Source: Glossina fuscipes (Eukaryota > Arthropoda > Insecta > Diptera > Glossinidae). Taken from it: 64,000 nt of DNA. Within the stretch, counting starts at the first letter, position 1; each line of letters opens with the position of its first letter. The stretch spans positions 407,511-471,510 of the forward strand of contig NW_023998485.1 of NCBI RefSeq assembly GCF_014805625.2. The letters are read 5' to 3'. A model generated the notes under the pieces. That model had not been told where the DNA came from. It searched no databases and saw only the letters and a list, made by a program, of their open reading frames with translations. The translations under genes and the position numbers were made by a program. Positions 6,783 through 38,280 of this stretch are shown in pieces.

Positions 6783-7379
6783 CTACCAATCAAACAGATC
6801 CCAGTCATCGTCTTTCATTTGCTCTTTGAACAATTCTATTAATTCGTCAAGGCGCATCGATTTCGATTTAAGTAACTGAAGGGTTTTCTTATATTTTTCG
6901 TCGCGCGTCAGATACGTTTTCAAATTTTCTAGAAGTTCCAAAAACTGTTGAAAAGTTAATTCTCCTCTTGATAGTAATATTTTTTCGATGTAATTTTTAA
7001 TTTCTTCCACGGATTTGTGATCGCTTTCTACAAACATCAAGGATAGACGTATGTTCTCGAATATCTCAAAATCCTCAATAGCACGTTTCATTGCAAAGAT
7101 TTCCTTAAGTGAAACATTGTCCCCATTCTCGACCTTAGACTCCATAAGGTTCGTTAAAAGTTCATGCATCTTACGCTCATAATTATTTGTGGGTTGTTTT
7201 TTGAAAACTTCTTTATGGTTTGCTAGTATTTTGTCAATTTTAATATTTAAATCCTTAGCCTCCCTATCTGGCGTTAATTGTTGTCTCGATTTCCTTGTGA
7301 TATTTTCCCCACAGCCGAGATCGACGCGAGCACTGAGTATCACTGCCGTCAGCGCTAAAACTAAATGTAATTTTTTCAT
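6783..7379 (-). CDS. small secreted protein, subfamily A, first member of the cluster
   Basis: This 198-residue intronless frame has an N-terminal signal peptide (MKKLHLVLALTAVILS, cut probably near residue 16-24) and no later membrane segment. The mature part is lysine/glutamate-rich and predicted mostly helical. Residues 139-154 read GELTFQQFLELLENLK and the tail ends KDDDWDLFDW; both recur in the 15-kb gene, so these are paralogues. The upstream in-frame ATG at 7,430 lies before the inferred transcription start near 7,419, so I place the start at 7,379. That ATG also has a good AAATGA context and heads the signal peptide. There are only two cysteines or fewer, so no disulfide scaffold. Function is unknown. 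The protein is likely to be secreted in quantity given the strong TATA promoter. The frame is intact, which argues against a pseudogene. Confidence 0.8.
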   Translation of the reverse strand: MKKLHLVLALTAVILSARVDLGCGENITRKSRQQLTPDREAKDLNIKIDKILANHKEVFKKQPTNNYERKMHELLTNLMESKVENGDNVSLKEIFAMKRAIEDFEIFENIRLSLMFVESDHKSVEEIKNYIEKILLSRGELTFQQFLELLENLKTYLTRDEKYKKTLQLLKSKSMRLDELIELFKEQMKDDDWDLFDW

Positions 7380-7415
7380 TTCCAAGAGTTTCAGATATAT
7401 TAATATTCTTATTAT

Positions 7416-7446
7416 GTATGAGAAATTCACCGCGCATCTATTTATA
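7416..7446 (-). promoter_or_regulatory. core promoter of the 7-kb gene
   Basis: Reverse-strand TATAAATAG (7,438-7,446) is followed about 27 bp later by TCATAC (7,416-7,421), an initiator-like site. The sequence between them (GATGCGCGGTGAATTTC) resembles the same interval in the three other cluster genes. Confidence 0.65.
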
Positions 7447-7469
7447 TGGCACTTTTGGCATAGTGTGTA

Positions 7470-7893
7470 TTAAGTTTGTACGGCTGGTTGTAACACACAG
7501 AAGGAGACCTATCTTTTATTATATCCACATGACCTAAACATGTATCTCTGTTTGACGTCTGTCCATATGCCTTTGTGTTTATCTAACAGATCGTAATTTT
7601 CAAGACATTTTCATGGAATTTGGTATATCAACGTCTTTTGACGCAAGGACGAAAGCTATTCGATCGGATATTTGTTTCGACCACACTCCATATAACGGAT
7701 CGGATGGGCCAATGTTTTGAAAATTTGGACCAAGCTGACGACTGAATATCCTCCAAGCCCTTAGGCTTTGATGAGAATTACGCATTTATATAAAAATAAT
7801 GCAAAATTTTTGTTATACTATTAACTAAACAATTTGTGATATAGGGTATCCAATAGATGGCCTTGTCGGACTATAGCATTCTTACTTGTTTTT
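7470..7893 (+). repeat. INE-1/DINE-1-like repeat next to the 7-kb promoter
   Basis: It carries a 'GACGTCTGTCCATATG' block, a block with 'CGATCGGATATTTG', and ends with GGGTATC...GACTATAGCATTCTTACTTGTTTTT. That terminal string is the hallmark 3' end of INE-1/DINE-1 elements in flies. It begins within about 30 bp of the TATA box of the divergent gene, so it forms that gene's immediate upstream DNA. Confidence 0.65.
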
Positions 7894-9611
7894 ATATACA
7901 AATTGTTTGGACTCAAATTTTTCTAAGTTATTGTAACGAAGTTTTCGTTAATTGTAGCAAGAAAAGATAATAAGATTTATTGAAAAGCTTCAAACGAATT
8001 TAGATTTTTTTTAAATTATACGAAGATAGGCAAGCGGGAAATGCCCATTAAATATACAACATTTACAACATTTGAGCTAATTTCGGCTTTGGGGTGATTT
8101 CTTAATAAACTACGAAATAGAAAACTTATGCGTAATGAAATATACCTAACATATGCGGAGATGATGTACGAATGTAAATCATTGATTTTAACCAACTCAC
8201 TCCGGCGCCGTCTGTAAGTAGGAACATTAATTTACGTTTTTAATTCCCTATCTCAGTTTCACCTTTTCAAGATTTTTCTAAACCGTGACTTTAAAACACA
8301 GAAACAGCGAAAATTAATTTTTTTTTGTAGATAAGTTCGAAAAATAATTGGATTTAAAAACAAAAAACATAGAACGAATTTAGTTAAGAACCTTAGGTTT
8401 CAGTGTAAATTTCTTAAAAAATATTCAAATGGTCATTTGAAATATACAACAGCAAATGACAATTTCTTTGAAAGTGATGTATCGAAATGTAACATTTCGA
8501 ACGGAATGAAAATGAATAAATATATTTTCAGAAATTAAGTTATTATCCATCAACTTCCATTGGCAATAATTTCATTTTGCCATTTGTTGCAATCGCTAAA
8601 TAACGTGGCCTTAAAACGAACCAATCGCAAAACTTTTAGATATAGATATAGCGTACGCATTAAAATAGAGTTATCCTACTCTGGTAATGTATATTTCATG
8701 GTTTCTTTCTTTTTCCGAATGAATTTTCAAACGTTTGCATTACTGTTACCATTGTAAATTTCATTAGCTTGAAAAGATTGTTGAGTCCTATACCATTATT
8801 ACTTTCAAACTAGTCGGGCTGCGACAAATTTTGTGTTTCAAATCTCACTTGTTATGAAAGGGCTTGAGATAGCCAGATTTCAAGCATTACCTTACACCTT
8901 GTTGATGTTTTTGCCATTCAGAGTTGTTGAAGGTTGACAAGAATGAATTAAAAGAATTAATTTTTTTTCTGCGCTTTTATTGCTATGAACAAAAATATGC
9001 TTTTTATGCAGCAAGCCTTCGTTGTTCAAATTTTGTGAATTTAATTTTTATGTCAAATTGCCATTATGAAACAATTTCCGCCATGATATGTTTTAAACTT
9101 GATCAATTGGCCATATCATTTTCTTAGAAAACTTGTATGCGGGCGAAGTTTAATAAAAAGGTCTTTCTTAAGCAAATTTTTCGATACTGCGGTTTTCGCC
9201 AGCTGAGTGTTACTATTTTTGTTCAGAAATTTTAAATATTGTAGTTGAAAGCAAGGCGTTTTATGGGGATTTGTCCGATCCACTCGATTTTTTATAGGGT
9301 ACATTCTTAAGCCAAAGCGCGACAGCATAAAAAATTTCGTTAAAATATCTTAAAAATTACGACCTGTTGGTTGAATATAAAATTATATGGACAGTCATCA
9401 CACTGATAAAGAAAAAGATAACCTTGTAAGCTTAAATCGATGCAGACAAATATTCTGAATCAAGCAGTGAAATAAAAGTTGGGCCTATCCCATATTCCCC
9501 TAGCACAAGTATTGCAGGGCTTAATAACGTGTAACGTTCGGAGCTGGCCTCTCAACTTAAATTAAATGAAGTAAAAAAGAAAAAATTGTACTTCTTCCCG
9601 TCGTCCAACCT
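7894..9611. other. gene-free A+T-rich DNA
   Basis: There is no recognisable gene or repeat. The short frames at 8,560-8,757, 8,924-9,127 and 9,116-9,328 (reverse) carry no motif and overlap each other. Confidence 0.55.
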
Positions 9612-10665
9612 ATCTTTAATTTTTATTTTACTTTTTATTTTACCCATTTATACATGAAATTCAACTAAAGAAAATTACAATTGAGTTCAGTGCATCTTAA
9701 TAGAAAATCTTATACTAATTGTTTTAAAACTGGTATGCAATAAAAAGGAAGAAAGAAAAGAGAAATTATAACAGCAAAGTAAGTTTAAAAGTAAATTAAA
9801 AAAGTTAAAAATAATTATAAGCAAAAGCACAGAAGCACAGCAGCAACAAGAACAGATCCAGGTTGCAAGTGAACCCTTAAACTATTGCAAACGTGCGTAA
9901 GCTTTGCAACCAACACGTTAACAACGCAATATTATTTTAAATAAAAAATGGGATATTAAGAATGAAATGTTAGTTTAAGTACGACATAGGTAAATCGCGC
10001 ACATTAAGCAAAGTTGTTTTAATAGACTTTAAAGAGTCCGAGAATGAGAATAAGTGTTAAATATCATTTAGGTTTCTGCCAACAAGTCTGAGCGGGTTAA
10101 ACAGCTCATAATTGTATTTGCATTGACTAAGCTTAATCAAGATAAAATGCCTAAAGAAGCGGTTACGGACATTAAAGCTTATCTCACTAAGTAATGCGAG
10201 CGAGTCGATAGTACCATTTATTTCTTTGATTAAGAAGGAAGTTTAGAAAAAATTTACGTTTTTCAAATGACGGTAATGATAACAGAAGCAACCTGTTTTC
10301 ATAAGAAGGAAGAGAGGCAATCGGGTCCCAATCCAAATACGTAACGGCAGGCAGCAAGAATTGCTTTTGAACAGATTCAATTGAGTCTACATAGCACCTA
10401 TATGAAGGAGACTGCACAACAAAGGCATACTCAAGTATAGGTCTAACCAAATACACGCGCAGACTTTTTGTAATATACGGATCATCAAGCTCTTTGAACC
10501 ACCTCTTTATAAAACCAAGCGCGGACCTAGTTTTGCTTAACGAGAACTCAATATGGAAGGTAAAACGTAATCTATGGTCAAATAGAACGCCTAAATCTGT
10601 GAACGAATCGTCGTCTTCCAACTTGTGCGAATCAGTGAAATACTGAGCAATGAATGAGAAAGAAA
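9612..10665 (-). mobile_element. non-LTR retrotransposon fragment B (CR1-like, 5'-truncated)
   Basis: The 3' end of the element lies in reverse orientation. The 3' UTR starts after a T-rich tail at 9,612-9,655. A 144-codon frame at 10,187-10,621 encodes the C-terminal RT/thumb region with SKTRSALGFIKRW, YLVRPILEY and SPSYRCYVDSIE, matching the copy at 46.4-47.4 kb almost residue for residue. The catalytic RT core and endonuclease are missing. The truncation point is near 10,665. Confidence 0.85.
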
Positions 10666-10739
10666 GTGAATGAGGTTAAGATTGCAATTGTTGACAAAAT
10701 TAAATATTAACAAGTTAATATACGGACTTATGAGATCAA

Positions 10740-12593: not shown

Positions 12594-12742
12594 TATAAAG
12601 GCTATTTAAGTTACAATACTTAAACGTTACACCATCCACTACATACATGGCACGTCTACCACTGCTATTACTTACACTAACAACTATTAATGCCATGTTG
12701 AAGTATTTCTTAACCAAACAACACGCTATGGTACTTTACTGA
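12594..12742 (+). CDS. possible 31-residue secreted micropeptide with TATA box
   Basis: The frame at 12,647-12,742 starts MARLPLLLLTLTTINA, a textbook signal peptide, followed by only 15 residues (MLKYFLTKQHAMVLY). TATAAAG at 12,594-12,600 is 53 bp before the ATG, leaving about 20 nt of 5' UTR if transcription starts 30 bp downstream. This layout resembles the cluster genes, but the sequence does not. It could be a true micropeptide, the first exon of a spliced gene, or chance. I do not recognise it. Confidence 0.25.
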
Positions 12743-13510: not shown

Positions 13511-15370
13511 ACAAAATAATTTGAAAATTACTCAAACTTCTCAAAGAACACGCCTACAATGTCTAGATGTCTATATAACAAAAACAAATAAATTTCTATT
13601 TTTATTTTGAAAATAGGAAAATAACAGCTGCGCTCATTATTATAGAATTTAAAAATTTAGTTCTTTTGCATTTTTAAGTCTTTTTTAGGACAACATGGTT
13701 TTGAAGGCGACGAAGGCTCCTTCTAGCGACGGAAATTACCGATCACGCAATTTGTTCTTGACGTTAATTTACGAAAAGAACTCGTTACTCAATGGTATCT
13801 TCGTTATCTGACCTTTTCATTTATAATAAAGACATGGATTCATGCCATTTACATTTAGATATAATAGAGAGCCTGGAGTTTAATTCGTTAACAGCAATTT
13901 TGGCCAGTTTCTTACACTGTCTGGGAAACTATGGCAAGCTTAAATAAGCTTTTTTGGACATAACACGGCCATTCAACTTTTTTCGACATGTACGGCATGT
14001 TGCAATGTTTTATTAGAATAAAATCGAAATGATCGAATTCGAGCAGGAGAAAATCAATAATCATATTTTTCTGCAATATTCTCCATTAAGGGTAACTCCA
14101 ATGCCATTTTCATATTAACGAAAAAATATTTTCTTCTCACAAACCATACCCGAAGGCTATTTTCGTGGATGCAAATGTCTTTTCGAAATAATAGATGTGT
14201 TTTCTCTACGGGACATGTTTTCTAATTTATCAAGTCATTAACCAAATTTACGTTAAATCTAAACAATTTCTAAATACTGTAAAGCTGATTATTTTTCCAA
14301 TTTTTCGCAGATACAAAAAAAAACTGGCAAAAATACCAATAAGTCCCAATTGTGTGCAAATTGCACACTTCTAATCGTGTTTTGACAGCAAACATACTTT
14401 AGTTCCCTACCAAATTGTCGTTGCACATTTTACGTGTTTGTGGTATCAGGTACATCTTTACGTAATGGATTATACAGTGAGTAGTAAGTAAAAGATTTGA
14501 GTACTATGGTACCAGCAAGAATAACATACGATCGCAATAATGTGTGGTTTGTGTAGAATAAATTAGGGGTTTGGTCGTTATTCTTTATACGTTTGAGTCG
14601 CATATTTCGAAAAAGAGCAGATTGCTTCACAAGCTGCCACACTGCAAGAAAAAGATTTACGACAATTTGCGAAAAATTGATTGGTGAATAAATTTCGGAC
14701 GGACAAAAACAACAAGCACTGGAGATGGTAAAGCATCGCATATCTGCGAGCGAGCGACTATCTGTTATATTACATTTTTTCAGGGTAAACGCTGCGTCTG
14801 ATATAGATGGAAATTGACAACTATTGCGAACAAAATTTACTGGGACTTGATTTCATTTGCGAACCCAGAAAGTGAAAAGACGCTCTATCGCTGTTGTTAA
14901 CTGCAAATTTCTTGTTGTTTGTAGCATGTCTTCAGGGTAACGTAAATTAAAGCTACAGAGGGTTTTCATCATTTTGAAAGATGAGATTTTGTCACGAGTG
15001 GTATTGCCATTAATATCTATGTGACGAGTGTATTTCAAGAAAATGCAAGTTAGAAGCTTCCGATTTTCGATTGTCAAAAGACTTGATATCCAGCACGTAT
15101 GGATGGGATATTATTCCATATTTGTCGGCAGATATTGCATTTATTTCATCACTCATAAGTGTTTTCATGTCGCTGTTTATTGAGCGATCACTCCAAGCTA
15201 ATCTTAACTTAAATTAACTAGTTTTTTAAAAATTGCTTGTGTTCATGTAATTTAACAAATATTCAAAAATTATTGAAGGCATTTCCTATAAATCATTTTA
15301 TCTTCATTGAGTAAATAGAAAAAGCTAACATAATAATAATTTAAAAAAAAATTCAAGTTGAAAGACCTCG
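13511..15370. other. intergenic DNA
   Basis: No gene is recognised. Reverse frames of 103 codons (14,430-14,741) and 74 codons (14,853-15,077) show no domain, no signal peptide and no promoter-like sequence; I treat them as chance. Confidence 0.45.
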
Positions 15371-15406
15371 TATATAAGAAACAGTTGTGCGATGAATTCC
15401 TCATTT
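15371..15406 (+). promoter_or_regulatory. core promoter of the 15-kb gene
   Basis: TATATAAG (15,371-15,378) lies 30 bp before TCATTT (15,401-15,406), a perfect TCAKTY initiator. The interval reads AAACAGTTGTGCGATGAATTCC and matches those of the other cluster genes. It sets the transcription start near 15,403, downstream of the ATG at 15,392, so that ATG is unlikely to be used. Confidence 0.75.
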
Positions 15407-15454
15407 ACAGTTTTAACATATTACAAGTCTTTAAAATATTCGAGAATTTTGAAA

Positions 15455-15967
15455 ATGAAGAAATCAGTTGTTGTAACTTCAGTGCTGATGACGTTGGTAC
15501 TTAGTTTAGATGTACATTTCTGTCTTGGTTTTGTTATTTCAGAAAGAGTCGAAACGGTGGACATTCCATCGTATGAAAAAAGAGAATCGCCTGAAGATTT
15601 ACTTGAAGCTGTGAAGTTGTTGTTCAATTTGGAGGAAAGCAAAAATGAGAGTTTGGAAAGGCTGAAGCAAATTTTAAAAGCAAACAAGTCTGCAAATGGA
15701 ACGGGCTCGTCAACGTCTACCTTATCTTCACCGATTTCGGCAACTTCATCGTTAGTTTCATCATTACCGACGGGAAAACTAACATTTAAACAATTCTTAG
15801 AAATTCTCGAAAAACTAAATATTTATCCTGTGCATGAAGAAGTTATTCAACTTATTGAATCCAATTCAGACCGAATTAATAAGTTGTACGAAGTTTTAAA
15901 AAAGGAGATGAATGACGATGATTGTGGTGATGATATTTTCGAATGCCTTTGGGATTTGTTTAATTGA
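15455..15967 (+). CDS. small secreted protein, subfamily A, second member of the cluster
   Basis: The protein has 170 residues in one exon. Residues 1-25 form a signal peptide (MKKSVVVTSVLMTLVLSLDV). Residues 44-60 (ESPEDLLEAVKLLFNLE) are helical and recur in the pseudogene at 21.4 kb. Residues 78-106 are a Ser/Thr-rich linker (GTGSSTSTLSSPISATSS), a candidate O-glycosylation or phosphorylation region. Residues 107-122 (GKLTFKQFLEILEKLN) match the 7-kb gene, and the acidic tail MNDDDCGDDIFECLWDLFN matches its DDDWDLFDW end with an insertion. I chose the start at 15,455 because the in-frame ATG at 15,392 precedes the inferred transcription start. It is a paralogue of the 7-kb gene with low overall identity. 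Function unknown; no catalytic motif. Confidence 0.8.
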   Translation: MKKSVVVTSVLMTLVLSLDVHFCLGFVISERVETVDIPSYEKRESPEDLLEAVKLLFNLEESKNESLERLKQILKANKSANGTGSSTSTLSSPISATSSLVSSLPTGKLTFKQFLEILEKLNIYPVHEEVIQLIESNSDRINKLYEVLKKEMNDDDCGDDIFECLWDLFN

Positions 15968-19020: not shown

Positions 19021-19875
19021 TCAATTAAATTTTTTGAAAACTTCTGCCAATTTATTATTGTGGTAATTTTTTAGTTGTTGGAAAAGTTGTTCCTGAGTTA
19101 CACCCTTTGAGGTTGATGATGAAGTTGATCTTTGCGGAAGGGATTTTGTCAATTGTTTGTTATCCGCTTCCGCCATATTCTCTGCTGGTGTATCGCCTGC
19201 CTGTGTATTCTCTGCTGNNNNNNNNNNGAATGGCGCTCTTACTGCTGGTGCCCTTGCTCCTGTAGTTCCCTCTGCCATTTCACTGGAATTCGTACCTAGG
19301 CTAGGTAGTGCAGAGAAAGGTGCTGGAGTTGGTGGTGGAGGTGATCTTTGGAGTACTTTTGTTTTAAATTGTCCTTTGTCAGATGTCGTATCCCTGTCCA
19401 TCGTATCCGTTTCCTGGTCGTCAAATGAAATCTGCGTTGTAGGAGTTGTTGTCATCAATGACGATCTTGACGCTGCGATTGCCGCCTCGCGTATTATGTA
19501 TTGCATCATATCATGAGTTGAAAACAGAAAAGGTAAGAGTGGTCTTTCTGATGCCGGCATTTTAAGTAGTCTGTTACGAAATATCGTACTCCTCTGCGTG
19601 TTTTCCGCCTCCCTTTCGTTAGGCCGTGTAGTCACAACAGATGTTGCCAGCGATGACGCGTTTGGCATTGAGGTTGCTGTATTATTTACTATGAATTTCA
19701 TAATATTACTTGTTGTAGGAAAAGACGCTAGGAGTGGTCCTTGAGGCGCCAGTATTTTTGGTTCTCTGTTATCCAATGTTATTACCCTTATAGTTCCCTT
19801 GGCCATTTCATCGTACTGCATACTTACACCATGTGTTGCTGCCATCAACAACAAAGTTAAGAGTAATTCTTTCAT
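19021..19875 (-). CDS. secreted repeat-containing protein, subfamily B, with assembly gap
   Basis: A 284-codon frame, counting four unknown codons across the N run. The signal peptide is MKELLLTLLLMAATHGVS, followed by MQYDEMAKGT, almost the same start as the 30-kb gene. Residues 26-83 and 94-147 are two copies of a module (K-x-L-x-P-x-x-x-PLL...SSLATSVVTT against PLLPFLF...SSLMTTTPTT). A third MAEGTTG begins at residue 200. A proline run (SPPPPTPAPF) sits at 178-187. The end, VTQEQLFQQLKN...KLAEVFKKFN, matches the 30-kb gene. I start at 19,875 because the in-frame ATG at 19,917 lies at or before the inferred transcription start. Length is uncertain: the gap (19,218-19,227) falls in repeat-like sequence and the frame across it is assumed. 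Confidence 0.72.
   Translation of the reverse strand: MKELLLTLLLMAATHGVSMQYDEMAKGTIRVITLDNREPKILAPQGPLLASFPTTSNIMKFIVNNTATSMPNASSLATSVVTTRPNEREAENTQRSTIFRNRLLKMPASERPLLPFLFSTHDMMQYIIREAAIAASRSSLMTTTPTTQISFDDQETDTMDRDTTSDKGQFKTKVLQRSPPPPTPAPFSALPSLGTNSSEMAEGTTGARAPAVRAPFXXXXAENTQAGDTPAENMAEADNKQLTKSLPQRSTSSSTSKGVTQEQLFQQLKNYHNNKLAEVFKKFN
19218..19227. other. assembly gap (10 N) inside a coding region
   Basis: Ten N in a row. It lies between AVRAPF and AENTQAGDTP in the reverse-strand gene. The flanks are alanine-rich and repetitive, so a collapsed tandem repeat of unknown length is likely. Confidence 0.95.
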
Positions 19876-19915
19876 TTTAAAGACTAACAACTGCTTTAAA
19901 ATACGTAAGACGTTC

Positions 19916-19958
19916 ACAGTGCGAATGGCAAATTCGTTGCGACACTATTCTTTATATA
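19916..19958 (-). promoter_or_regulatory. core promoter of the 19-kb gene
   Basis: Reverse-strand TATATAAAG (19,950-19,958) precedes GTGTCGCAACGAATTTGCCATTCGCACTGT. The CCATTCGCA.TGT segment and the 5' UTR (TTACGTA.TTTAAAGCA.TTGTTA) are nearly the same in the 30-kb gene. Confidence 0.7.
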
Positions 19959-21439
19959 CAAAAAATTTTTATTCAAACTTCTTTCTAATTATTGCAACGT
20001 ATTTTTGCTTAATTGATGTAAAAGTGCTCGTAAAATACTTTCAAAATGTGCTGAATAAACTTAACTCGTGTAGGAAAACTTTTCGGAAATATAAAACTAA
20101 AATTATGCATATTTCAGGAAATATCTAAGAATATGTCTATGCGTATCATAATAACTTATGCTTATAGGGAATTGGATTATGAGCCCAATTTTAACCGAAT
20201 CAGACCCGTTTTCGATGCTACGATGGGTATTGCTTATATAAAGCACCCCACATAATAATTTAAATTTATATTTTTGTTTAGAGTTTTTACTTTATAAGGA
20301 ACATAGGAATGGGAGCAGATTTGTTAAAAATAACATTAGTCTAAATAATCCAAACCTTATTTAATAACTTTCCCTTAACTGTAGTTCTAAGTTCTGCCAA
20401 CTCTGACGGCAAATTTTACGGCCACTCATTTACTAATTTAGAAATAAATTAGATTTTGTGCAAACTTTGCTTTAATTTATTTACAATTCTTTGCGCAAAA
20501 GAAATTACAAAATAAGTTGAGCATACGTTCCCAATCGATCATTTTTTAAAGAAATGTTCTCGGAAGAAAGAGAAAATTACATCGTCCTGTTTGTACCTGT
20601 AGCAGAAACGGATGGCTTTCTTATTTGATTTTTTAACTCATGTTTTATCTTTATATTTCACATTGTTTTTATAATGTTATTTTCAGCTTCCTTGTTGATT
20701 CCTTCGAGATTTCTCATGGCTCTCGTCTTTAAGGTGCCCGTATATCCCAAAACCCACTTACGCATTTTAATTTTTTATACGCTCTTCCCGCCAGTCCTCT
20801 TTCCGATCATTCGCAGTAATTTTAATTTTAAAGCAAAATACTGCGTTCTCTTCCTTTTCTCCTCTAGCTATATTTAATTAATTCGCACCATAAGTGCGAC
20901 ATGTGTACACGTGTAGTGCAACCTGAATGTCCGGTCATATATAAAACAAAAAAATTTTTCGAATAATAAGCTGATTAGAACGTTGTAAAATTAAAAAACG
21001 CAATTGTTAAATTGAAATTTCTGCTGTTATTGATTGCGATGCAAAACTGTTTATGTAATTAAGCGTAAAATATTAACGTTTGCATTCGTGTTTTTAACGT
21101 AACGAGCAATTTACCTTAATATCGCTCTCAACGGTAACGGTATCTGGGGAACTTGGCCGCTAGGAATTTGAAGAGCCGCAGACGGTAGATAGTAGTTGCA
21201 AATCATGCCAACACCGGCACCAAAAATGTTATTGTTGCAGGGATATTGTTCTAATTGCTCAGACTACTTCATCCCCAAACGGTGCTTTTAAATCATTGAC
21301 ACAAGTGCTATTAAAAACTGCTACAATAATAAGGATAAAGGGTAGGCAAACCGAACCTAGTGATATTTTAGGTTTATTTTATTTGTGTTTGGCCAAAATG
21401 AAGTCCCAAAAAAATGTTTAATGTGCGAAACTCGTTAAA
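19959..21439. other. intergenic DNA
   Basis: No gene is recognised. A short stretch near 20,210-20,250 (GATGGGTATTGC, TATATAAAG) may be an INE-1-like scrap. The frame at 20,674-20,877 has no motif. Confidence 0.45.
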
Positions 21440-21645
21440 ATGAGGAAATTGACTTTAGAGTTGATGGCAGTGATACCTACCTTAGATGCAATTTTAAGTC
21501 CTGGCTGCGAAGAATGAGTTGGTGGAACGAAAGAATCACCTGAACAATTATTCAAAGCTGTTGGATTACCATTGAATTTGTTGTGACAAAGCTTATTATT
21601 GAATTGAAGCGAACTAATAAATTATATAAAAAGTCAAAAGAGTAA
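21440..21645 (+). pseudogene. decayed subfamily-A gene
   Basis: Read from an ATG in good context (TTAAAATGAGG), the frame gives MRKLTLELMAVIPTLDAILS, a signal-peptide-like start, then a stop (TGA) after CEE. In a near frame it continues ESPEQLFKAVGLPLNLL, which matches ESPEDLLEAVKLLFNLE of the 15-kb gene. After a further stop it reads LIIELKRTNKLYKKSKE, close to IQLIESNSDRINKLYEVLKK of that gene. About 65 residues between the two blocks (linker plus the LTF-QFLE helix) are absent. There is no clear TATA box upstream. It lies in the middle of the cluster in the same orientation as the 15-kb gene. I read it as a broken, internally deleted paralogue. Confidence 0.6.
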
Positions 21646-24348
21646 GTCTAGAGAAATTTATTCATTCAGCCAAATCAGGCTTAAAAAGACACATCCTTGC
21701 TAAAGTATATATATACTTCACGGATTTAAGTAACATCTCAACGTATACATTGATTTAACATCAGCCTTTCTGTTCGCGTGTACATTGAAAAAGTCCGTTA
21801 GAACAGACCAATAACCCACATTTATGTTTTTTTTTTTTGCCAAACATTATTCAGCAGATATATATTATAAATAGAGAGCTGTCAATGTTAAACACATAAT
21901 GCGTAAAAATGCAATATAGCCATTGTGTGTTCAAATAGGGTCATTCAACGACGCTGAGATCAACACAAATATAAGCGCCTTGAAAATACATTGAAATTGG
22001 AGGATTACATAAAGTGTATACTGCATTAATTAAGGTTGAGATAGTTTTTTAAGATCACGATTACATTACAAGGTTATTTGAACAAAAGCACTGGTATGCT
22101 AACAGAGCAAATAACAAACGCAACAGTGGAAGTAGTTGTAGCAAAGTGCTCAAATTTGTTTACTAGCACAACATGCTTAGAAGTGTTTCTTCAAAAAAAG
22201 AGAGCAGCAAAAACGTGTATTACGAAAACTTCTGTTTTATAGAACTTTTATCTATTTTTTTAAGTGAAATAAAACAATGTTTACTATTTGAATCCTTGAC
22301 TATAAATAATTTATTAAAAATAATTTTGTTTAACTCTTAAATGGATGAATTTTTATTTTTAATATACAAAATTTTTAACTAACTAGGAAATGGCTGTAGT
22401 TAGTAGGAAAAATACAAAAAAAAAGCACATAAGAATTACTCCTTAATTTTTAAAAAACATATTAATGCATTTCTATGTCATCTTGAGCAATCACTACTTG
22501 CGTTTCGTAAATCTACTGCGTACAAAAATATAAGACAAATGATATCTCTCATTACATTACAATCCATGAAAACCTACGAAATAATTATTTTTTCAACGTA
22601 TAACGTAAAAGAACGTTGCAGGTAGCGCGTTGTCACTGGGCAGTATTTTTTAAAGTGGAATATTACAATGTTTTAAAAGATAGGCCAGTGATAAATGCCT
22701 TCCTGTCCGGGAATCTACAATTAGGCAATCTGTTCTATTATACAGTTCCGACATGACATTTTGGTGACTTCCAAACCTGACTCTTTTCGTAGTTTATTTC
22801 TTTTCCGGAATAAACTTCGAAACGATGTGCGTATCTTTTGGATAATGTATACAAAAACGTCAACCCGCAATTAATAAGTATGGAAATTATTCAGTCGCAC
22901 TGAAAATACATTATTATTAACACAACAATACAATTACTAAAAAAGATTAAAAAAATATGACAACAGAGATAAATATTCCACAAAGTAACTTGAGGATTAG
23001 TGAGTTTATGTATATTGAATATTTATGTATTTATACATCACAAAAAAACTATGTTTTTCTTGCAAAAATATGCACGTTATTCGTTACTCTCACCTTGTTT
23101 TTCCTTTATGTTTTTTATTACTTTTTGTATGAATAATCGTAATTCGTAACACCCGTCGAAATGAAATCTCAGCTAGCGCGTTAACAATAAAAATTGTCAC
23201 AGATAAAGAAATGAACAGGCAAAGATTCTAGTTGCCTACGGATTTGATAAAATAGTTTTGGTAAAATAAAAATTAAAAAAAAAAAATACTGTGCAAACGT
23301 TGCTACATAAAGAGTCATGAAGGTTTTAAACATACGATGTAGATCTACACCACCACGGACTTAAGGATTAAAGATAAACAATTATTTCTTCCATAGAAGT
23401 GCTTATTAATCAAACCTACTTTCCCACCAATAAGAATATTCTTAATGAGAACCTAAGCATTAATAGGAATTTTGGAATGAATACCGGCTTTAATCGAAGT
23501 AGCAATTGTTGAACAAGAAAAAAGATATTGCTTATTAGTAGGCCTTGTAACTGGAAATTTTAGTAAACTGTGACAAATTAGCAGGAAGTACAATTTAGCA
23601 AGGAGAACGCCACTGTATTCTCTTCGCACTAAATTTTGGCGTTGTCAAATTTAATTTTTTAAATCTCACGTGAAGCAGAATGCGCAAATCTCAGCAAATG
23701 TAAATAAAAAAAAGTCTCACTGTGGCGTGATAGTCAATTGTGCAGGAAAGATGTAACTCTACTAACATCGAGTATAAGCAAACCTAAAAAGTTTCTGTTA
23801 TGTCAAGAATAAGTTCTGGGCAAGTGAAACACTGTACAATAGTATATCAAATTTTTAAGCTAAGCGCAACAGTAAACAGTTAGTAATAATTTTTTCGCTT
23901 GGTTTAGCAAGAAACTGAAGCATATAGGGAATCGTAGAAAAAGACTTTTTAAAAAGTTTGAGACAAACGGTTCTCTCACTGATCTTTTCTCTTATACCAA
24001 TGAGAAAAAGAAATTTCTGGTAATGAAATGATGATGAAATTCTCTTTCTTACGACGAACAATTTTAGAGTAATTCGAAAAATGTTTGTGCGTTCGTGAGT
24101 GAGAAAAACTAGTCGATACCTTTCACATGTGCGTTCTAACGACTTACCAAACTCTTTAACTGTGTCTAAAATGTTTTCAAAATATTTTGAACTTTCTCTA
24201 GAACGATTTTCATATATAACATTATAATATAACTTAACATTGTAATATATGCAAGTGGCGTTTCAACATGCATCCTCATAAATTGTTGTGATGAAATGGT
24301 TCGACTTCTGACCTTTATAATCAATTCACTGCTCATTCTTCTTACTTA
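21646..24348. other. gene-free A+T-rich DNA
   Basis: I see no gene, transposon landmark or repeat. The frame at 23,855-24,061 (reverse) is unremarkable. Confidence 0.5.
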
Positions 24349-27260: not shown

Positions 27261-27261
27261 G

Positions 27262-28734: not shown

Positions 28735-28930
28735 TTAATAGCAGTAGTGATTGGTACCGCTTATGAGACCAAGGTACTGCGCGTTGTTATTGGTGCTGCC
28801 TATACCATTGTAGTATAAATAGCGTTTCTCGTCGGTGTTTCTGCTATTATTTGCAATTACCGTTTATAATGTACGCCTTTTCTTGCTTGGTCGCCAAGTA
28901 CCCGGATACTGCTACTAGTAAGAATGACAT
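28735..28930 (-). pseudogene. possible small secreted peptide gene with one frameshift
   Basis: From the reverse ATG at 28,930 the frame reads MSFLLVAVSGYLATKQEKAY then IINGNCK and stops. One base of frame change there joins it to NNSRNTDEKRYLYYNG and a Asn/Ser/Tyr-rich end IGSTNNNAQYLG...HYCY. The start looks like a short signal peptide and the rest like a small secreted peptide of about 65 residues. It could be a broken gene, a spliced one, or chance. I do not recognise the family. Confidence 0.25.
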
Positions 28931-29957
28931 TAAGATAAATATCTTGTTATTATAAAAATACGAATGAAAAAGTTAATGTTTAACGCTTGATTATATAAAG
29001 AATTTTTCATATTACACTAATAATAACAGCAAAAGTTTTAATATTTTTGTTTTCAATGTACGATAGTTTAATCAGCGTATTATTGAAATTATTATTATTA
29101 TTTTTTTTTGACCAAACTGTCAGGGTCCACATGTATTACTGGAGGGTGAAAAGATGGCATAGTACTTGCGTATGTTCTCTTTAAAAGTGAAAACACGTTG
29201 AACGGCGGTAAAATCAAGTCCAACTAGACCATAAGCCAGGAGTTAGGTGGAAAAATGAGGGTGCACAAGGATTGTTGGGTACATGGAGAGAACCTTGTTA
29301 TGTGTGATAATAATAAGGACTGCGAAAATAATTTTGTAAAATCAAAATAAAACCTTTACATCAAAATTAGGAGAAAAAAAAAGATATTCCTAATTCGATG
29401 TATGTTTACCCTGCAAAGTTATAAATAAAACGATAAAACAAATATGTATATTTTTTCCTTAGAGAGCATTTATAATGTTATCGACCTAGTATCAATACTT
29501 CATTCATTTGATATGTGCAACGAATTGTAAATAAATTAAAACAAACTTTACACAAAAAGCCCATTTATTTCTGAAATCATAAATTGATGCCCATCAAACA
29601 GGTCGTCAACCACGACAGAACATAAAACTACTATTAAGGGAAAGTCTGTAACAGGTTTTTGTAATATGAAATTAATAAATTGAATACAAAATCCCGACCT
29701 GTTATTACGCCCTTTATAAAAGTAAATGAAGGTGAATATTATATCGGTATCCGATTCGTCAGAATTATAAGCTATTAGGCTATGCGTATGTCTCATAAAT
29801 ATTTTCTGAGGTATAATCAACTGTATTTCTATATTTATTAAAAGGTGATCAAAAAGTTGTACTTAGCTAATATATTTTAAAAGTGCTTTGCGAGCATTGT
29901 TAATTAAGGAAAACTATAATATAGGCGTTTAAAAAAACTTTGAGCCAAAAGTTTCCG
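28931..29957. other. intergenic DNA
   Basis: No gene is recognised. The 90-codon reverse frame at 29,548-29,820 has no signal peptide or motif and looks like chance. Confidence 0.45.
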
Positions 29958-30000
29958 TATATAAGGAATAGTTGCGCAATGATTTTTCCATTCGCAGTGT
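29958..30000 (+). promoter_or_regulatory. core promoter of the 30-kb gene
   Basis: TATATAAG (29,958-29,965) is followed by GAATAGTTGCGCAATGATTTTTCCATTCGCAGT (29,966-29,998). Transcription probably starts at or near the CAGT around 29,995. It is the best example of the shared cluster promoter. The ATG at 29,972 is between TATA and the start site and therefore not used. Confidence 0.75.
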
Positions 30001-30040
30001 CAACGTGTTACGTACTTTAAAGCAATTGTTACTCATAAAA

Positions 30041-30544
30041 ATGAAAATACTACTTTTAACTTTATTGCTGATGGCTGCAATACAGATTATAAGTATGCAG
30101 TACAATGAAATGGCGGAGGGTACAACGGACACAACAATGTCTGCGACAACCATCAACTCTTCTAACGCATGGGAAGCAGACATACCGGCAGGGGATACAG
30201 TGGCAGGTGAAGCGGACACATTGCTGGAGGAAGAACCAGAAGCAGTGGTATTAAACACGTTGACAGGGGTAGCGGACAAAGAGGCAGGGCACACGCTGGT
30301 AGAGGATACGCCAGCAGCGGAAGAGTCTACCCCGGCAGTAGATAAGGTCGTAGGGGATATTGCGAAAGACGACAACCAACAATTTAGCTTTAAAAAACCC
30401 TCCCTCCAAAAAACACCTCTACCTCCACTTCCACCTCTACCGTTAACCGTAGACGAGTTTAGTCGCGACCAACTTTTCCAACATTTAAAAAATGAACACA
30501 ATGAGAAACTATCAGAAGCTTTCAACAAATTTAGTCGGGCCTAA
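30041..30544 (+). CDS. acidic secreted protein, subfamily B
   Basis: 167 residues in one exon. The signal peptide MKILLLTLLLMAAIQIIS is followed by MQYNEMAEGT, nearly the start of the 19-kb gene. Residues 28-110 are strongly acidic and rich in Ala, Thr, Glu and Asp with no cysteine (for example EADTLLEEEPEAVV), so probably disordered. A proline run PLPPLPPLPL sits at 127-135. The end (RDQLFQHLKNEHNEKLSEAF) is a predicted helix matching the 19-kb gene. Compared with that gene it lacks the two repeated modules. The start at 30,041 follows the inferred transcription start and has a good ATG context (AAAAATGA). Function unknown. Low complexity and acidity suit a secreted nutritional, adhesive or calcium-binding protein, but nothing decides between these. 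Confidence 0.8.
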   Translation: MKILLLTLLLMAAIQIISMQYNEMAEGTTDTTMSATTINSSNAWEADIPAGDTVAGEADTLLEEEPEAVVLNTLTGVADKEAGHTLVEDTPAAEESTPAVDKVVGDIAKDDNQQFSFKKPSLQKTPLPPLPPLPLTVDEFSRDQLFQHLKNEHNEKLSEAFNKFSRA

Positions 30545-32240: not shown

Positions 32241-34207
32241 TGCGACAGTGTTGCTCATTGAAAATTTGACATTTTCGCTGGCAGTTTGAAAAATATTTGC
32301 CGACAGTACAAAAGGTATGCGCTGCGTTTGTAAGGTATCTCGCGAGTAGGTTGAGTATGTCTATCAAGTTTTCAAGCATATGCGAAGAACGTGTTCCGAT
32401 ATCCGTAAAGATACGACCAATACGACCGATAAATTTAATGGACTTCAGGACTTTTCAACAATTGCAAATGCCTATTCCAATACATCTTCCAAACAATAAT
32501 TCTTGTCGTTCTCTGCCTTCTCATTTTCTCGGTTACAGCTGAGAGGAATTCCGTAAACGTGGTTCAACGTGTTGATTTTCAAATATATATTCCGTTATTT
32601 GTAGTTCGCCAGTCATCTGATGAAACGAAACTGCTTCAGCTCCACCTGCCGATAAACCAGTATAAAATAAGAGGAAGGCGGTTGGTTTATCTGCTACAGC
32701 TGTTACTGATTTGGTCGATTAGGCGAAGATACGTATTGCAATTTATCGAAATTTTACATCAACCAACACGCGCATAGGACCCTTTGTTTCGACAATATTT
32801 GCACTCGAAGACGATCAGACGATGAAAAGTCCGCGTTCGAAGAAGACGAATGCGATTCGTCTAGACAACGAGCTCAACTAAGTACAATCCCGCAGATATT
32901 GATATAAGAGGAGCTTCTACTTACGAAGCAAAAACGAATCGGTCGCTCTCATCGAAGGAACTCGTTGTTAGCTCTGATCGTAAATTCTTTTCTATTTTTC
33001 AATTGGCCATTAACTTTTTAAATTTTTAATGATTTTTGTGGGTTAAAATTTTCATGCTTGCCTGATCCTGATGCCATTTCCTTGTGTATCCTTATCGATT
33101 ACGCAGATATTTTTGTAGAACCAACTGCGGATATTTTTAATTTGTCTTTGACTTGTGGAGTTTTCCTCGATATCTAGAAGTGCAGTTATGCTTTACCCAT
33201 ACTTAAATCTAACAGTACCCAATAGATTAAGAACTGTGTGAACTATGCAAAGCTCTCTGTTATACGGAGAAAAACTTGTAACGAATACATAAGCTTACAC
33301 AAGATTTAGGGATGTTTTCTATTTACATAGTTTTACTGAAACTCGTCAATTTGACGGAAAATTTTGCTGATCGTCACTGTCGCTTAAAAAAAAAATAGGA
33401 ATAAAATTTTACGCGCAAATGCGATTAGAAATATTTGGGTAAAAATTAAAAGTAACACGCTCTCATACGCGACCACAATAAAAAAAATTAAGACAACCTT
33501 GAAAAAGACTGACAATTTTTTCACATTTTTGTCTATAACTTTCGATCCTGTAATATATTTTTAAAAAAATGGATTAGAACTATCGACATGTTTGGCACAA
33601 AAATGGTTCCGATTTTGCAATACATTCACAATGGACTATGTAAGTGAGTTACCATTTATATACAAATTTACGATCATTGAGTTCTTCTTGATATTATCTG
33701 CTACTATTTGATTGTACTAGATTTACTTTCATTTCTGCAATACGGGACAGATTTATTCGAAATGGTTGAATCTTACAATTGCTGAAAAGTTGTTGCCAGC
33801 CAAACTAGATGTCGTTTATATATGCCTAATAATCCTGATAAATTTGGCATAAAGTTTCTGTTGGCAACGGATTTTGCAAGATAATATTTAGTAGATGCCT
33901 GACCCTTATTGGGGAAAGACGAACAACGACCGTTGGAGTTACCTTTGGGTGAACACGTCGTACGCTTGTTGAGTTGTAAATAATAAAAAGGATAATATCG
34001 TTCGATATCCTACAAACCTGTAGCAATCAGTTGAGTACGTTCTCACAATTCGCAAATCAAAATCAAATAAAAGATATTATTGTATAGTTCTGAGCAGAAA
34101 AATGCGAAGATAGAGCAAAATACAAACGTATTCCTCAAATAGCTAGATTTTACAGGAAAATTAAGTATGGAGTTAGTATTCTCGAAGGAATAACTAAAAA
34201 ATATTCA
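32241..34207. other. intergenic DNA
   Basis: I see no recognised gene. Frames at 32,297-32,542 and 32,559-32,777 overlap other frames on both strands and have no domain. This stretch has a slightly higher G+C content than its surroundings and may hold an unrecognised transposon remnant. Confidence 0.4.
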
Positions 34208-34330
34208 GGGACACCATTTCAGATTTGGCAACCATCAATGCCTGGATATTGTACAAAGAGACAACTAATGTAGACATATCTCAGAAGAATTTCCTCCTTC
34301 AATTGGCTGAAGAATTGGGCAATGACCAAA
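34208..34330 (+). mobile_element. piggyBac-type transposase fragment
   Basis: The frame reads DTISDLATINAWILYKETTN and continues VDISQKNFLLQLAEELGND. This is the conserved C-terminal segment of the piggyBac DDE transposase (the N-A-W-I-L-Y-K block followed by the F-L-LA-EL helix). Only about 40 residues are recognisable. The catalytic domain, C-terminal cysteine-rich domain and inverted repeats are not seen. It is a fossil. Confidence 0.75.
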
Positions 34331-34549
34331 ATGAAGAAAACGAACTTCAATTATTCAATTATATTATTACTGGCTTCAATTTGTTGTCTGATGTGCGACA
34401 TCCTTAATTCTCGAAAATCTTACCAAATTTTGCTATGTAAGAAAAACAAAGCTAAGTACGCTTGCGTTCGGTACAAACAGTTTGCACACGGAATGTACAC
34501 ACGCAAGGTAGATACTGCATGCAAAAGATTAATTCAAGAGGAGTGTTAA
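34331..34549 (+). CDS. candidate small secreted cysteine-containing basic peptide
   Basis: A 72-residue frame starts in a good context (AAAATGAAG) with a signal-peptide-like MKKTNFNYSIILLLASICCL. The mature part is strongly basic with four cysteines (residues 36, 45, 64 and 72: LLC, YAC, TAC, EEC) and ends in cysteine. AATAAA-like sites follow the stop at about 34,550-34,577. It begins at the end of the piggyBac fragment in another frame. An alternative ATG lies nine bases upstream. I do not recognise the family. Even cysteine count, a signal peptide and a poly(A) signal favour a gene, but no promoter is evident, and chance is possible. Confidence 0.35.
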   Translation: MKKTNFNYSIILLLASICCLMCDILNSRKSYQILLCKKNKAKYACVRYKQFAHGMYTRKVDTACKRLIQEEC

Positions 34550-36599
34550 TAAAAATGTGTAAGATGTAAATAAATAATTTAGATAGACATTTCTTTTTAA
34601 TATGTTTGCCAAAAACACAAACTCCATTAAAGAAAGGTATATATAATCCAAGGCCGTAAATGTAGGAACGTAATATAATTTAACATTCGGGAGTATTAAT
34701 ATATGCAGACGATCTTCTTGTTGTTTAAACAATTTCGAAGGTTTTCGTCGCCTTCATCTACTTTGCTTTCGTTGGCTGGACGGTGTCGAGCAAATGGTAT
34801 TAAATATAGAACAGTGCGAAGCTATGTCCCTCTATGAGCAGTATCCTCTATTACTTTCAATTGTGATTTGAATGGAGAGGTTTTAGAATTAGGTTTCGGC
34901 GTTTAGGGACTTTGATGTTATTTTTGACGATAAACTTGTTGACTTTTTATCTCCATGTGAAAGTCGTGTATAGGGCTAGGTGCGCATTTAACTTTATTTA
35001 GCGCTAGGCGAAAGATTATGGCGGCCTTTATGTAACAAATTGTTTCTACGCTTCTTTGGTATATGCGTCTGTTATTTGATCTATCAATTACCACTGTTTC
35101 AGTCATATTGAAAATGAAATAATTTCAGTTTGCAACAATTTGCTTAGCTCCGAACGTAGAAGATTTATCTCGGGAATTGGTTTTTCAATGAAGCTTATTC
35201 AAAGCGACTTCTTATGTAAGATGCAAGATCTTTTGCGCTAATTTTTGATATGCTTGGGTTTATTTTACTTTGCAAGCCAATCAAAACGATAATATAATAG
35301 CTAGATGTTTAAAGGTTAAGCAGCTAAAGAAGGATAATATTGTATTGTTAGTATTTTAACATTTTCTTCCTAGATATAATTTTTTCTCAACTCAGCTTAC
35401 CTACTTACGATGTTATTTCATATTAACTAAGGTTTTATGCAAATAAATCAGAAAAAGATATAACTGCGGATCTGCTGGAGATAAATCCAGTTTAACATGG
35501 GGCAATAATAGTATTATTTGAACGTCATAAACGTTTTGTTACCAACCTCTCAAGGAGCTTAGGCCGAACATTAAGTGTTGCTATAGCCCTTTATTTTTTA
35601 AACTGGCTCCAACGAGCGCTCTTTAAAATCGGGAACCCCCCGATCTTACCGATAAGTTGAGTATATCGGTCAATTTATAAGGATACAGGAATCATCTGAA
35701 CAAAGGCAGTAGAAATATGTACTTCAAAAATATTAAGTTGTCTTAAATATCGCAGTTAGCAGGACTGTGAATTTTTCACACTCTTTTCTTCTATAACGAA
35801 AACGTTTTTCACTTTTCCATAATATTCCTTTTTCCTCTTTTTGGTCATACGTCGGTTACGTATGCGATTTGTCAAGTTGTTTACTAAATTGTACTTTCTG
35901 CTAATTTCTCATTGTTTACCAAAGGTTTCATCGGTTGGTGTTACAAGGCCTATTAATGAGAAATATCTATCTTCTTGTTTAAAGATTGGTACTTCTATTA
36001 AAATTGGTGGGACAACTTTTGCCGAAACAGCCTTTTTTGTGAACGCAATGGGTTCGGACCAAATTAATTAGTAACGTTCAGGCTCCTATAAGGAATATTG
36101 TTATTCGGCGGAAAGTAGATTTCATTAATAAACATTTTCTTGAAAGGAATAATGGTTTATCTTTAGGCAAAATTGTATTAAATAAATGATTTGTAATCGA
36201 GAGCTCAAATAGTAAAGATTTTTTTATTTCACTCACAAAAGAAAATAAAATTCTCTTTCATTACACGTTTTTGCTTGCCTTTTCTTGCCGGCTTTGTAAT
36301 TCGTACATCACTTCTAAGCACGTTGTGCAAGCAGAAACATTTCAGCACCCTACTATACTGTTATTGGTTTGGGTATTTGATCCGCTAAGCTCCTGTTGTT
36401 TTTCATTTTTCTACTATTTTCACCACTTTTCTTACCTTTTTGATAACCTCTGTCATTTGACCCTATTTTCGTCCCTGCATTTTTAAGACGTATACATATT
36501 CTAATATGTAGCATTTTAACATTGTGAGCAGAAAATTTATTGCATAACTATTTCTTATATGCAAATAGTTTTTACTTGAAAAAATGAATAAAGTAAGTG
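34550..36599. other. intergenic DNA
   Basis: No gene is recognised. 35,575-35,690 contains 'GTTGCTATAGCCC' and 'GATAAGTTGAGTATATCGG', possibly a scrap of an INE-1-like end. Frames of 60-77 codons here have no motif. Confidence 0.45.
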
Positions 36600-37100
36600 T
36601 GATTGATCAGAGTTAACTTCTGAATCGATTTACGCTTATACGTGTATGCGTCGGATTGTCTGCGTAGTTTCACAAGCAATGTTGTACTTAAAGTGGGCTA
36701 AATAGGTGAAACGACAGTGCAACATAAAACAGGAACAAGTCTGCTGTCTGGGTTTTTCACTCATTACAATTATATTCGACCTTATCTTTCATATCCGTCA
36801 CTATTATCCTATCCAAGTCGTTTTATTTGATACTCAATTGATAGGACTGTTAGGAAAAGAAAGAATCCTGCGCCTTGTGGGTTTCACTATATTGATTTTA
36901 GAAGTAACACATTTTTAGACGAATGCACAGAATAATTTGCAACGCTCGGTCTTGTTTATGTTATGAGTAAAAAACAGAAAAAAAGCGAAAAAGTAATAAT
37001 TTTATTCTACCTGCCTGGCCGATTTTTTCCATTTGTTTGGTAGAAGTGTGAGGTGATTCACAAAAAAATATACAAAATGTCAGCATTCATAGGTGCGTTC
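36600..37100 (+). repeat. probable INE-1/DINE-1-like repeat, degraded
   Basis: 'TGATCAGAGTTAAC', 'TGCGTCGGATTGTCTGCG' and 'CTTAAAGTGGGCTAAATAGG' follow in the order seen at 12,950-13,510 (the last corresponds to TGAAAGTGGGCCAAATCGG). It is strongly diverged and its ends are not defined. Confidence 0.4.
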
Positions 37101-37559
37101 ATTTTACGCTTTACAGCAGACGTGCCCTTTAGGCAATAACAATCCTTCGTGCTAGAACTTCAAATGTTTTTGTCAAATTTGAAGTTGATACCTTAATTTT
37201 TGCGACCAGAAGTGTGTTAACAACGCACATTTCATTCTTCAGAACTTTCCAGGACTACTCCTGATTGTTTGTGAATTTCTCAGTTTAGACATTAAAAGCA
37301 AGAGTTCTAGTAATTGAATTTTTCAACTGCACGAAAGTCAAATAAGCATATTATTAACAAGCAAGAACATTATATTCAGCTGTGGCCGAATCTCTTACAC
37401 TCATCAAAAAGACTAAAAACAGGAAAAGAACTATATTTTCATACCCAGTTATATTGAGTGGCCGTGAGTGGTTTTTTCTATTCTTTTAAAATAAAAGTGA
37501 AAATTTATATCCTATATTCGTTGTAGTTTACGAGTAATAAGAAAAAATATTCTTAGTTT

Positions 37560-37885
37560 TGGTTGCATTTTAGGCATGTTCTCTGATCAGTTTGGTCAAT
37601 GTTCAAATACTTTTATAAATTTGTAGGCGATGTTTTCGTTTGTGTGAATGGGAGAATGTTTCCGGTAGGTTTGTTCGTCGTGCTTTTTGTGTCCCACCTA
37701 CATGTCCCAAGTTTAAAGATATTTTGGTGAAAATCAGTATATTGAACTGTTTTTCGATCACTTTCCTTATAACGACTTATTTTGAAAAGTCAATATATGG
37801 GTAAGTAGAAAGTAATGTAGGGTATTTAATGGCAAGTCGCGCCTCGCTATAGCGTTTTTCATTTCTTATAAATATCTAAGCAATA
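37560..37885 (+). repeat. INE-1/DINE-1-like repeat end next to a cluster pseudogene
   Basis: It ends GGGTATTTAATGGCAAGTCG...CTCGCTATAGCGTTTTTCATTTCTTAT, the form of the INE-1 3' end. It stops about 90 bp before the decayed promoter of the pseudogene at 38 kb. Confidence 0.5.
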
Positions 37886-37971
37886 ATTGAAAAATTTTCA
37901 AAAAACCTTTCTTTTAAGTAAGGAAAGCTGTCTTGAATAATTAAAAAAATAAATTGAGTTGACAGCTTCTG

Positions 37972-38008
37972 TAGACAAGGACCAGTTGCGCATTACGCTT
38001 TCCATTCG
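37972..38008 (+). promoter_or_regulatory. decayed cluster promoter
   Basis: TAGACAAG (37,972-37,979) stands where TATATAAG occurs in the intact genes and is followed by GACCAGTTGCGCATTACGCTTTCCATTCG. The spacing and the TTGCGCA...TTCCATTCG block align with the 30-kb gene. Two substitutions destroy the TATA box. Confidence 0.6.
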
Positions 38009-38014
38009 TAAAAA

Positions 38015-38280
38015 ATGAAAAAATTAGTTTTCATTGTAATGCTGTTGGCAGCGGAACTTGCTGTGAAATTAGTTTCTACAAAGCGAATAACAAACCTTAA
38101 CGACATCCCAACGATCGGATTCGCGATATAGAAAAAGCTATATCTGCTATGAAAAATAAACTCAACAATCCATCCTCAAATTCAAAATTTTTAGAAATTC
38201 TAAGAATATTTAAAAAGTTAAATGATGACGGTTTTAGAATTAATCAAGAGGAATTTCTGAAACGAAAAGATGTGGAGTAA
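38015..38280 (+). pseudogene. frameshifted cluster gene relic
   Basis: The frame starts MKKLVFIVMLLAAELAVKLV, a signal peptide like those of the cluster genes, and stops after residue 38 (38,129-38,131). In another frame a continuous reading begins before that stop and runs to 38,280, including SNSKFLEILRIFKKLND, which resembles the QFLEILEKLN helix of subfamily A. One indel near 38,113 would connect them to a protein of about 90 residues, shorter than the intact genes and without the WDLF tail. The ATG is only 6 bp after the CCATTCG block, so the 5' UTR found in intact genes is deleted. With the broken TATA box, this is a pseudogene. Confidence 0.65.

Follow-up and report, generated by a model that had tools for sequence, protein, structure and literature searches.

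The 64,000-bp stretch of the Glossina fuscipes genome analysed here (C202:407511-471510, contig NW_023998485.1), called the window below, carries a cluster of genes for small, probably secreted proteins, named g7, g15, g19 and g30. The promoter, leader and signal-peptide DNA of these genes can be aligned across all four, and the promoter, the leader and the start of the signal peptide have a common origin. The window has a mean GC content of ~33% and was examined together with 100 kb on each side, giving 264 kb of contig in a genome of 366 Mb. In this stretch, four intact-looking genes are accompanied by four recognisable relics (21.4, 36.5, 38.0 and −37.77 kb), and not by the two decayed genes listed in a preliminary description of the window. 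Positions count from the first base of the window, and negative values lie to its left.

Gene g7 (6783..7379, minus strand) is a single-exon open reading frame (ORF) of 198 residues with a hydrophobic N-terminus, an L/E/K-rich composition and an acidic C-terminal tail. Gene g15 (15455..15967, plus strand) is a single-exon ORF of 170 residues with an S/T-rich linker and a C-terminal part homologous to that of g7. It would have 191 residues if read from an upstream ATG at 15392, which precedes the predicted transcription start; we used the ATG behind that start. Gene g19 (19021..19875, minus strand) is T/A/S/P-rich and runs through 284 codons across an assembly gap of 10 N (19218..19227). Gene g30 (30041..30544, plus strand) is a single-exon ORF of 167 residues, acidic and A/E/T-rich, with a C-terminus homologous to that of g19. 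Open frames of this size are beyond chance, since none of 20 simulated 64-kb second-order Markov sequences had an ORF of at least 167 residues, and the longest ATG-initiated ORFs in them had 94-155 residues. Hence the four genes of the preliminary description stand as ORFs, but intactness and frame continuity of g19 are unproven because of the 10 N inside its ORF. Despite this gap, the last 25 codons of g19 can be aligned, without a frame shift, with those at the end of g30.

All four N-termini are hydrophobic and contain a basic residue, and in accordance with the preliminary description they were called as signal peptides, on hydrophobicity only and not with SignalP. When the 264 kb were filtered for ORFs of at least 50 residues with a hydrophobic N-terminus, K or R in the first eight residues and a TATA box at −150 to −55, seven ORFs were returned: the four genes, one ORF of 75 residues and two alternative frames of a Nimrod-type gene. 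Isoelectric points (pI) of the full-length g7, g15, g19 and g30 proteins are 6.16, 4.72, 9.09 and 4.35, respectively. With assumed cleavage sites, the mature proteins have masses of ~21.0, 16.4, 28.7 and 16.1 kDa and pI values of 5.6, 4.6, 9.1 and 4.3. In the same order, they contain 2, 3, 3 and 1 N-x-S/T sequons (by plain motif, not NetNGlyc) and 1, 3, 0 and 0 cysteines; g19 and g30, both cysteine-free, abound in T, A and P. The greater length of g19 is largely due to an internal tandem repeat of residues 36-97 and 101-163 (19387..19770, minus strand), which scores 69 at the protein level against a null maximum of 58 (0/1000 shuffles) and 39 at the DNA level against a null maximum of 19 (0/1000). 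This repeat replaced the hypothesis that g19 arose by doubling of g30, for which 153/500 shuffles were as good over the whole length.

In the genomic sequence, no intron was seen in any coding part from ATG to stop, with g19 read across its gap. Introns within the coding parts were rejected because TATA box and initiator stand close before each ATG and the frames run open, so that the coding parts read as single exons, as first described. An AATAAA signal occurs within ~210 bp past the stop codon in g7, g19 and g30, and not in g15.

TATA boxes were confirmed before all four ATGs. The region of g7 comprising core promoter, leader and signal-peptide start (7318..7471, minus strand) has TATAAAT at 7446, followed by an initiator-like TCATAC. 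The corresponding promoter-to-signal-peptide regions contain TATATAAG at 15371 and an initiator-like TCATTT in g15 (15345..15519, plus strand), TATATAAA at 19958 in g19 (19813..19984, minus strand), and TATATAAG at 29958 in g30 (29932..30103, plus strand), where the palindrome-like GTTGCGCAAT lies between TATA box and initiator. In the four genes, the TATA box starts ~27-32 bp ahead of initiator-like TCATAC, TCATTT or CCATTC, and the ATG follows 67-84 bp behind the box. A TATA-type box, changed in the relic at 38 kb, can be superimposed before a conserved stretch in seven of the eight copies; the relic at 21 kb was excluded from this overlay because it has no TATA-type box. By manual count, the stretch between TATA box and initiator matches the C/EBP consensus at 10/10 positions in g30 (GTTGCGCAAT) and at 7-9/10 positions in the six other copies. 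This match is a lead and not a test, because the copies are related.

In each of the four genes, the leader between TATA box and ATG is likewise free of stop codons in the frame of the coding part. The peptides of the g19 (19876-19944, minus strand) and g30 (29972-30040, plus strand) leaders would be similar, and neither has an in-frame ATG. Of the 11 differences between these two leaders, six fall on third positions by manual count, which is not significant.

The copies are related to different degrees. The g19/g30 duplication took in the whole unit, with limits at ~−1.36 kb and +1.4 kb relative to the g19 ATG. Identity between the two is 75.7% in a stretch of 255 bp (E 1e-47), 67% in 313 bp at the 3′-end, 70% around promoter and signal peptide, and 59%, with gaps, in the upstream kilobase. 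Between g15 and g30, 151 bp align at 69% identity (E 2e-7), and BLAST matches of g7 to the others are weaker (E 0.001 to 0.005, and 9e-5 to g15 in another comparison). The C-termini of g7 and g15 match by tblastn at 42% over 71 columns (E 4e-11). The initial statement that the middles of the proteins barely align holds in part, but the second half of g19 can be aligned with g30.

The claim of related ends was borne out for all gene pairs but one. We compared 3′-end windows comprising the last 120-170 coding bases and 250-270 bp behind them with 300 single-base shuffles per pair, and five of the six pairs beat all shuffles. The 3′-end of g7 scored 112.5 with g19 (null maximum 88), 106.5 with g30 (93.5) and 100.5 with g15 (95.5), and g15 and g19 barely exceeded their shuffles (90.5 against 89.5). 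The pair g15/g30 showed no excess, with 124/300 shuffles reaching its score. In these alignments, the coding end and stop codon of g7 lie opposite g19 and g30 sequences ~75-85 bp past their own stops, and therefore an old coding end seems to be retained there untranslated. The join of the two gene pairs, g7/g15 and g19/g30, rests on promoters and 3′-end DNA.

Decayed copies were searched with Infernal and nhmmer, using a model built from the four promoter-to-signal regions. The genes themselves score E 1e-29 to 2e-40 but are the training set, whereas the four relics are independent finds (Infernal E 1e-9 to 1e-4, nhmmer 6e-9 to 7e-6). The relic at 21 kb (21411..21800, plus strand) is a decayed g15-like copy with an ATG at 21440 and no recognised TATA box. 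The second (36100..36580, minus strand) keeps a promoter with a CATATAAG box before an unrecognisable coding part. The third (37946..38330, plus strand; ATG at 38015) has a changed TATA box, a shortened leader and a broken frame, and the fourth, found with the promoter model, lies left of the window at −37.77 kb (C202:369744-369871). Reading frames behind the relic promoters are broken. In 16 comparisons, uncorrected for their number, coding remains were matched by 0/200 shuffles for the relic at 21 kb against g15, and more weakly for those at 38 kb against g15 (3/200) and at −37.8 kb against g7 (8/200); the relic at 36.5 kb gave no signal in shuffle comparison with the family genes. In addition, an old promoter-like stretch ~0.5 kb upstream of g7 (7891..7954, minus strand) resembles the g19 promoter (77% over 66 columns, E 9e-7), and a weak promoter-like match (28918..29014, minus strand; Infernal E 0.015) may be a further relic. 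Birth and death of copies and the duplication of g19/g30 as a unit are thus visible in one place. With its local duplicates, some intact and some decayed, and an export signal that is better conserved than the mature protein, the locus fits a secretory cluster of the birth-and-death kind.

Selection was studied through proportions of synonymous (pS) and non-synonymous (pN) differences on six gap-free segments that we chose ourselves (153 codons). All six together give pS 0.55 against pN 0.27. Synonymous differences exceed the others in the C-terminus of g7/g15 (pS 0.72 and 0.80 against pN 0.26 and 0.29) and in the signal peptide of g19/g30 (0.46 against 0.14). In the g19 repeat, pS and pN are 0.76 and 0.50 for a 15-codon piece and 0.51 and 0.40 for both of its pieces together. 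The excess at several of the end segments points to purifying selection there. We also simulated neutral decay in 2000 runs, with a redraw chance of 0.2 per site (~0.15 real changes) and an ORF counted as kept at 80% of its length. With 0.02 insertions or deletions (indels) per site, the ORF was kept in 6/2000 runs for g30 and in 1/2000 for g7. Given these simulations and the g19/g30 flanks of only 59% identity, we read the ORFs as probably kept by selection, with middle parts that may be nearly free.

Relatives were searched genome-wide with the g7, g15 and g30 proteins and the g30 promoter, and the best candidates of each search were scored. Among these candidates, g7 found g15 only (limit E 0.001), g15 found g7 and one chance-level match (E 0.24), g30 found g19 only (E 0.01 and 0.03) and the g30 promoter found g19 only; outside the family, E 0.24 was the best match. 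None of the four proteins came near a curated Pfam cutoff or had a Pfam match at E ≤ 0.01, and matches of g7 and g15 were weak (E 0.016 to 0.24). Likewise, none of the four had a meaningful relative in the PDB (best E 0.39). A viral origin of g7 was rejected, as seven IMG/VR stretches matched its peptide pattern and none of the seven encoded a relative. As far as one genome shows, the alternative named in the preliminary description, a lineage-specific secretory cluster, is supported: the proteins are likely secreted, their genes are open single exons driven by TATA promoters, and no meaningful relatives appeared in Pfam, the PDB or, outside the locus, in these genome searches.

The family is flanked on both sides by vajk-like genes, with one relic farther left. 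Repeats of VPVPYPVEK type are common to only three related ORFs, at −61.9, −18.1 and 63.5 kb, which we take to be vajk genes; the last of them is the right-hand neighbour in the window (63478..64000, continuing to 64845, minus strand). These repeats are of low complexity and named by no Pfam family. Exons of ACE (Peptidase_M2) lie left of the family at −97.7 and −68.9 kb, and to its right, at 113-148 kb, Pfam EGF matches were found in all three Nimrod-type ORFs scanned. The whole stretch is presumably the ACE-vajk-Nimrod block of insects. The vajk and block names are putative, as our literature search, in the parts of the sources that it covered, gave no description of a Nimrod/vajk cluster. 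These genes are neighbours of the family on the same contig, and no sequence relation to it was found. The four proteins showed no match to the vajk-like ORFs at E 1e-5 and contain no VPVPYPVEK-type repeats, and they have no EGF-type or CCxGY motif and hence lack the NIM/EGF repeats of Nimrod proteins.

The array of Nimrod-type EGF ORFs occupies both strands (L018:9446-10000 and L019-L022), several of its members have CCxGY motifs, and one is a single open frame of 1171 codons (L021:4998-8510). A gene for a rhodopsin-family receptor (L022:4944-6821) adjoins it. Within the window, broken copies of apparent non-LTR retrotransposons with similar reverse-transcriptase-like ORFs are found at 10190-10675 (minus strand) and 40083-49222 (both strands), and ORFs of similar kind also occur in its flanks. 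In a naive ORF scan, 34100-34546 (plus strand) suggests a small secreted cysteine protein. We rejected a fifth secreted gene at 34.3 kb, as the stretch, including its cysteine-rich end, resembles in its motifs a remnant of a piggyBac-type transposase. A Pfam scan of 10 of 69 stop-to-stop ORFs gave no match above cutoff.

The explanation that we favour, with moderate confidence, is that the four genes form one locally duplicated family of single-exon secreted-protein genes, with a focused TATA/initiator promoter serving a secretory tissue. According to this model, a compact focused promoter would switch on the duplicated genes in that tissue, and their products would be secretions of a bulk or structural kind: those of g19 and g30 would resemble mucins, and those of g7 and g15 would be charged and probably helical. 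The middle of the proteins would need a certain composition and not an exact sequence, so that it drifts and may grow by internal repeats, and export signal and C-terminus would be held by selection. For the tissue, the best single guess would be a reproductive or salivary gland, followed by haemolymph or immune secretion.

Several points weigh against this explanation. The family is known here from genomic sequence alone, and g19 crosses an assembly gap. Constraint is weak in the last 25 codons of g19/g30 (pS 0.28 against pN 0.20) and absent in the larger, 34-codon piece of the g19 repeat (0.37 against 0.36). The argument from ORF decay depends on indels: without them, 173/2000 runs for g30 and 39/2000 for g7 stay open at a redraw chance of 0.2, and 594/2000 and 221/2000, respectively, at 0.1. 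At the protein level, the pairs g7/g15 and g19/g30 are not clearly joined. Shuffles were as good as the real C-termini in 96/500 cases for g7/g19, 221/500 for g7/g30 and 58/500 for g15/g30, and of the four comparisons only g15/g19 was rare (1/500). AlphaFold applied to g7 with g15 gave a predicted local distance difference test score (pLDDT) of 38.9; because this model is unusable, the structural part of the explanation is a matter of composition only. Finally, location in the Nimrod block equally suggests an immune or haemocyte use.

This last use, in which the proteins are secreted immune effectors or haemocyte products and functionally part of the Nimrod block, is possible but in our view rather unlikely. 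The family has vajk-like genes on both sides, ACE and Nimrod-type genes lie in the same stretch, and the promoters of the family have the C/EBP-like match described above. Immune effectors usually show fast evolution and copy turnover, and both are seen here. On the other hand, the proteins lack known domains and are poor in cysteines or free of them, and neighbours of unrelated origin may differ in function.

Only slightly less probable, and unlikely as well, are salivary or mouthpart mucins, or salivary peptides of a blood-feeding fly. The T/A/P-rich, cysteine-free g19 and g30 would fit such mucins, and besides mucins, Glossina saliva contains several multigene families of secreted proteins that are specific to the genus (PMC2853526). 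These families, including FB-SG 20 kDa, the acidic 8 kDa proteins and S/T-rich mucins, resemble ours in being secreted and multigenic, without known relatives (PMC2853526). However, in mass and pI the four proteins as a set match neither the FB-SG 20 kDa nor the acidic 8 kDa family. Mature proteins of the FB-SG 20 kDa salivary and fat body family have 18.9-20.2 kDa and pI 5.6-6.0 (PMC2853526), and g7 alone comes close to these values. Another known system is GMOY005874-5-6, novel Glossina seminal proteins that are likewise duplicated, secreted and encoded at a single locus, but they share six conserved cysteines (PMC4742874), in contrast to the 1, 3, 0 and 0 of our proteins.

Very improbable is the identity with mgp2-10 raised in the preliminary description, in which the family would correspond to all or part of this locus for milk gland proteins of tsetse flies. 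Both are clusters of small, secreted and divergent proteins with a conserved signal peptide (PMC3998918), the milk protein promoters studied have a TATA box in common (PMC3998940), and g7 alone is near MGP length and pI. But MGP2-10 are nine genes with a shared exon-intron structure, encoding proteins of 170-191 residues with pI 5.86-6.92 (Table 3) and no predicted glycosylation sites (PMC3998918), whereas we found coding parts without introns, lengths of 167-284 residues, pI 4.35-9.09 and sequons in all four proteins (1-3 each). Five further Glossina species have one-to-one orthologues of all nine mgp genes, except mgp2 in G. brevipalpis, and these are conserved under heavy negative selection (PMC6721284), in contrast to the four strongly decayed relics here. 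In M. ovinus, the mgp block spans 20 kb and mgp2 is missing (PMC9887928). Four ORFs and four relics in 264 kb also disagree with nine genes, or eight in G. brevipalpis, in a block of ~40 kb. We thus rejected mgp2-10 identity on gene number, exon structure, length, pI and glycosylation, the two families being set apart by published descriptions and not by sequence. The present evidence speaks against identifying this cluster with the milk locus of tsetse flies.

That the frames are functionless, as transposable-element remnants or chance, is hardly credible: remnants of presumed retrotransposons and piggyBac-like elements lie nearby and four of eight copies are decayed, but the chance and decay simulations, the synonymous excess at several end segments, the conserved TATA-to-initiator layout and the absence of a repeat-like copy number among the best candidates of the genome searches all oppose it.

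A further reading is speculative and rather unlikely. In it, a gene family with a secretory or immune-secretory role would have arisen anew within the old ACE-vajk-Nimrod block of flies, a compact promoter of TATA box, C/EBP-like stretch and initiator would have been kept while the protein middle became nearly free, and the old coding end of g19 and g30 would have been cut off and retained as 3′ untranslated sequence. As the family adjoins Nimrod-type genes, a link to immunity can be tested.

The locus offers readable flanks and promoters together with intact genes and relics, and it can help to show what selection keeps, namely export signal, C-terminus and core promoter, and what it releases. 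Clusters of this kind are a source of lineage-specific secretions such as milk, seminal fluid, saliva and glue. If the reading of a family newly arisen in the ACE-vajk-Nimrod block is true and a single gland expresses it, the tsetse milk proteins would have an independent counterpart, a second composition-driven secretion from a local gene nursery.

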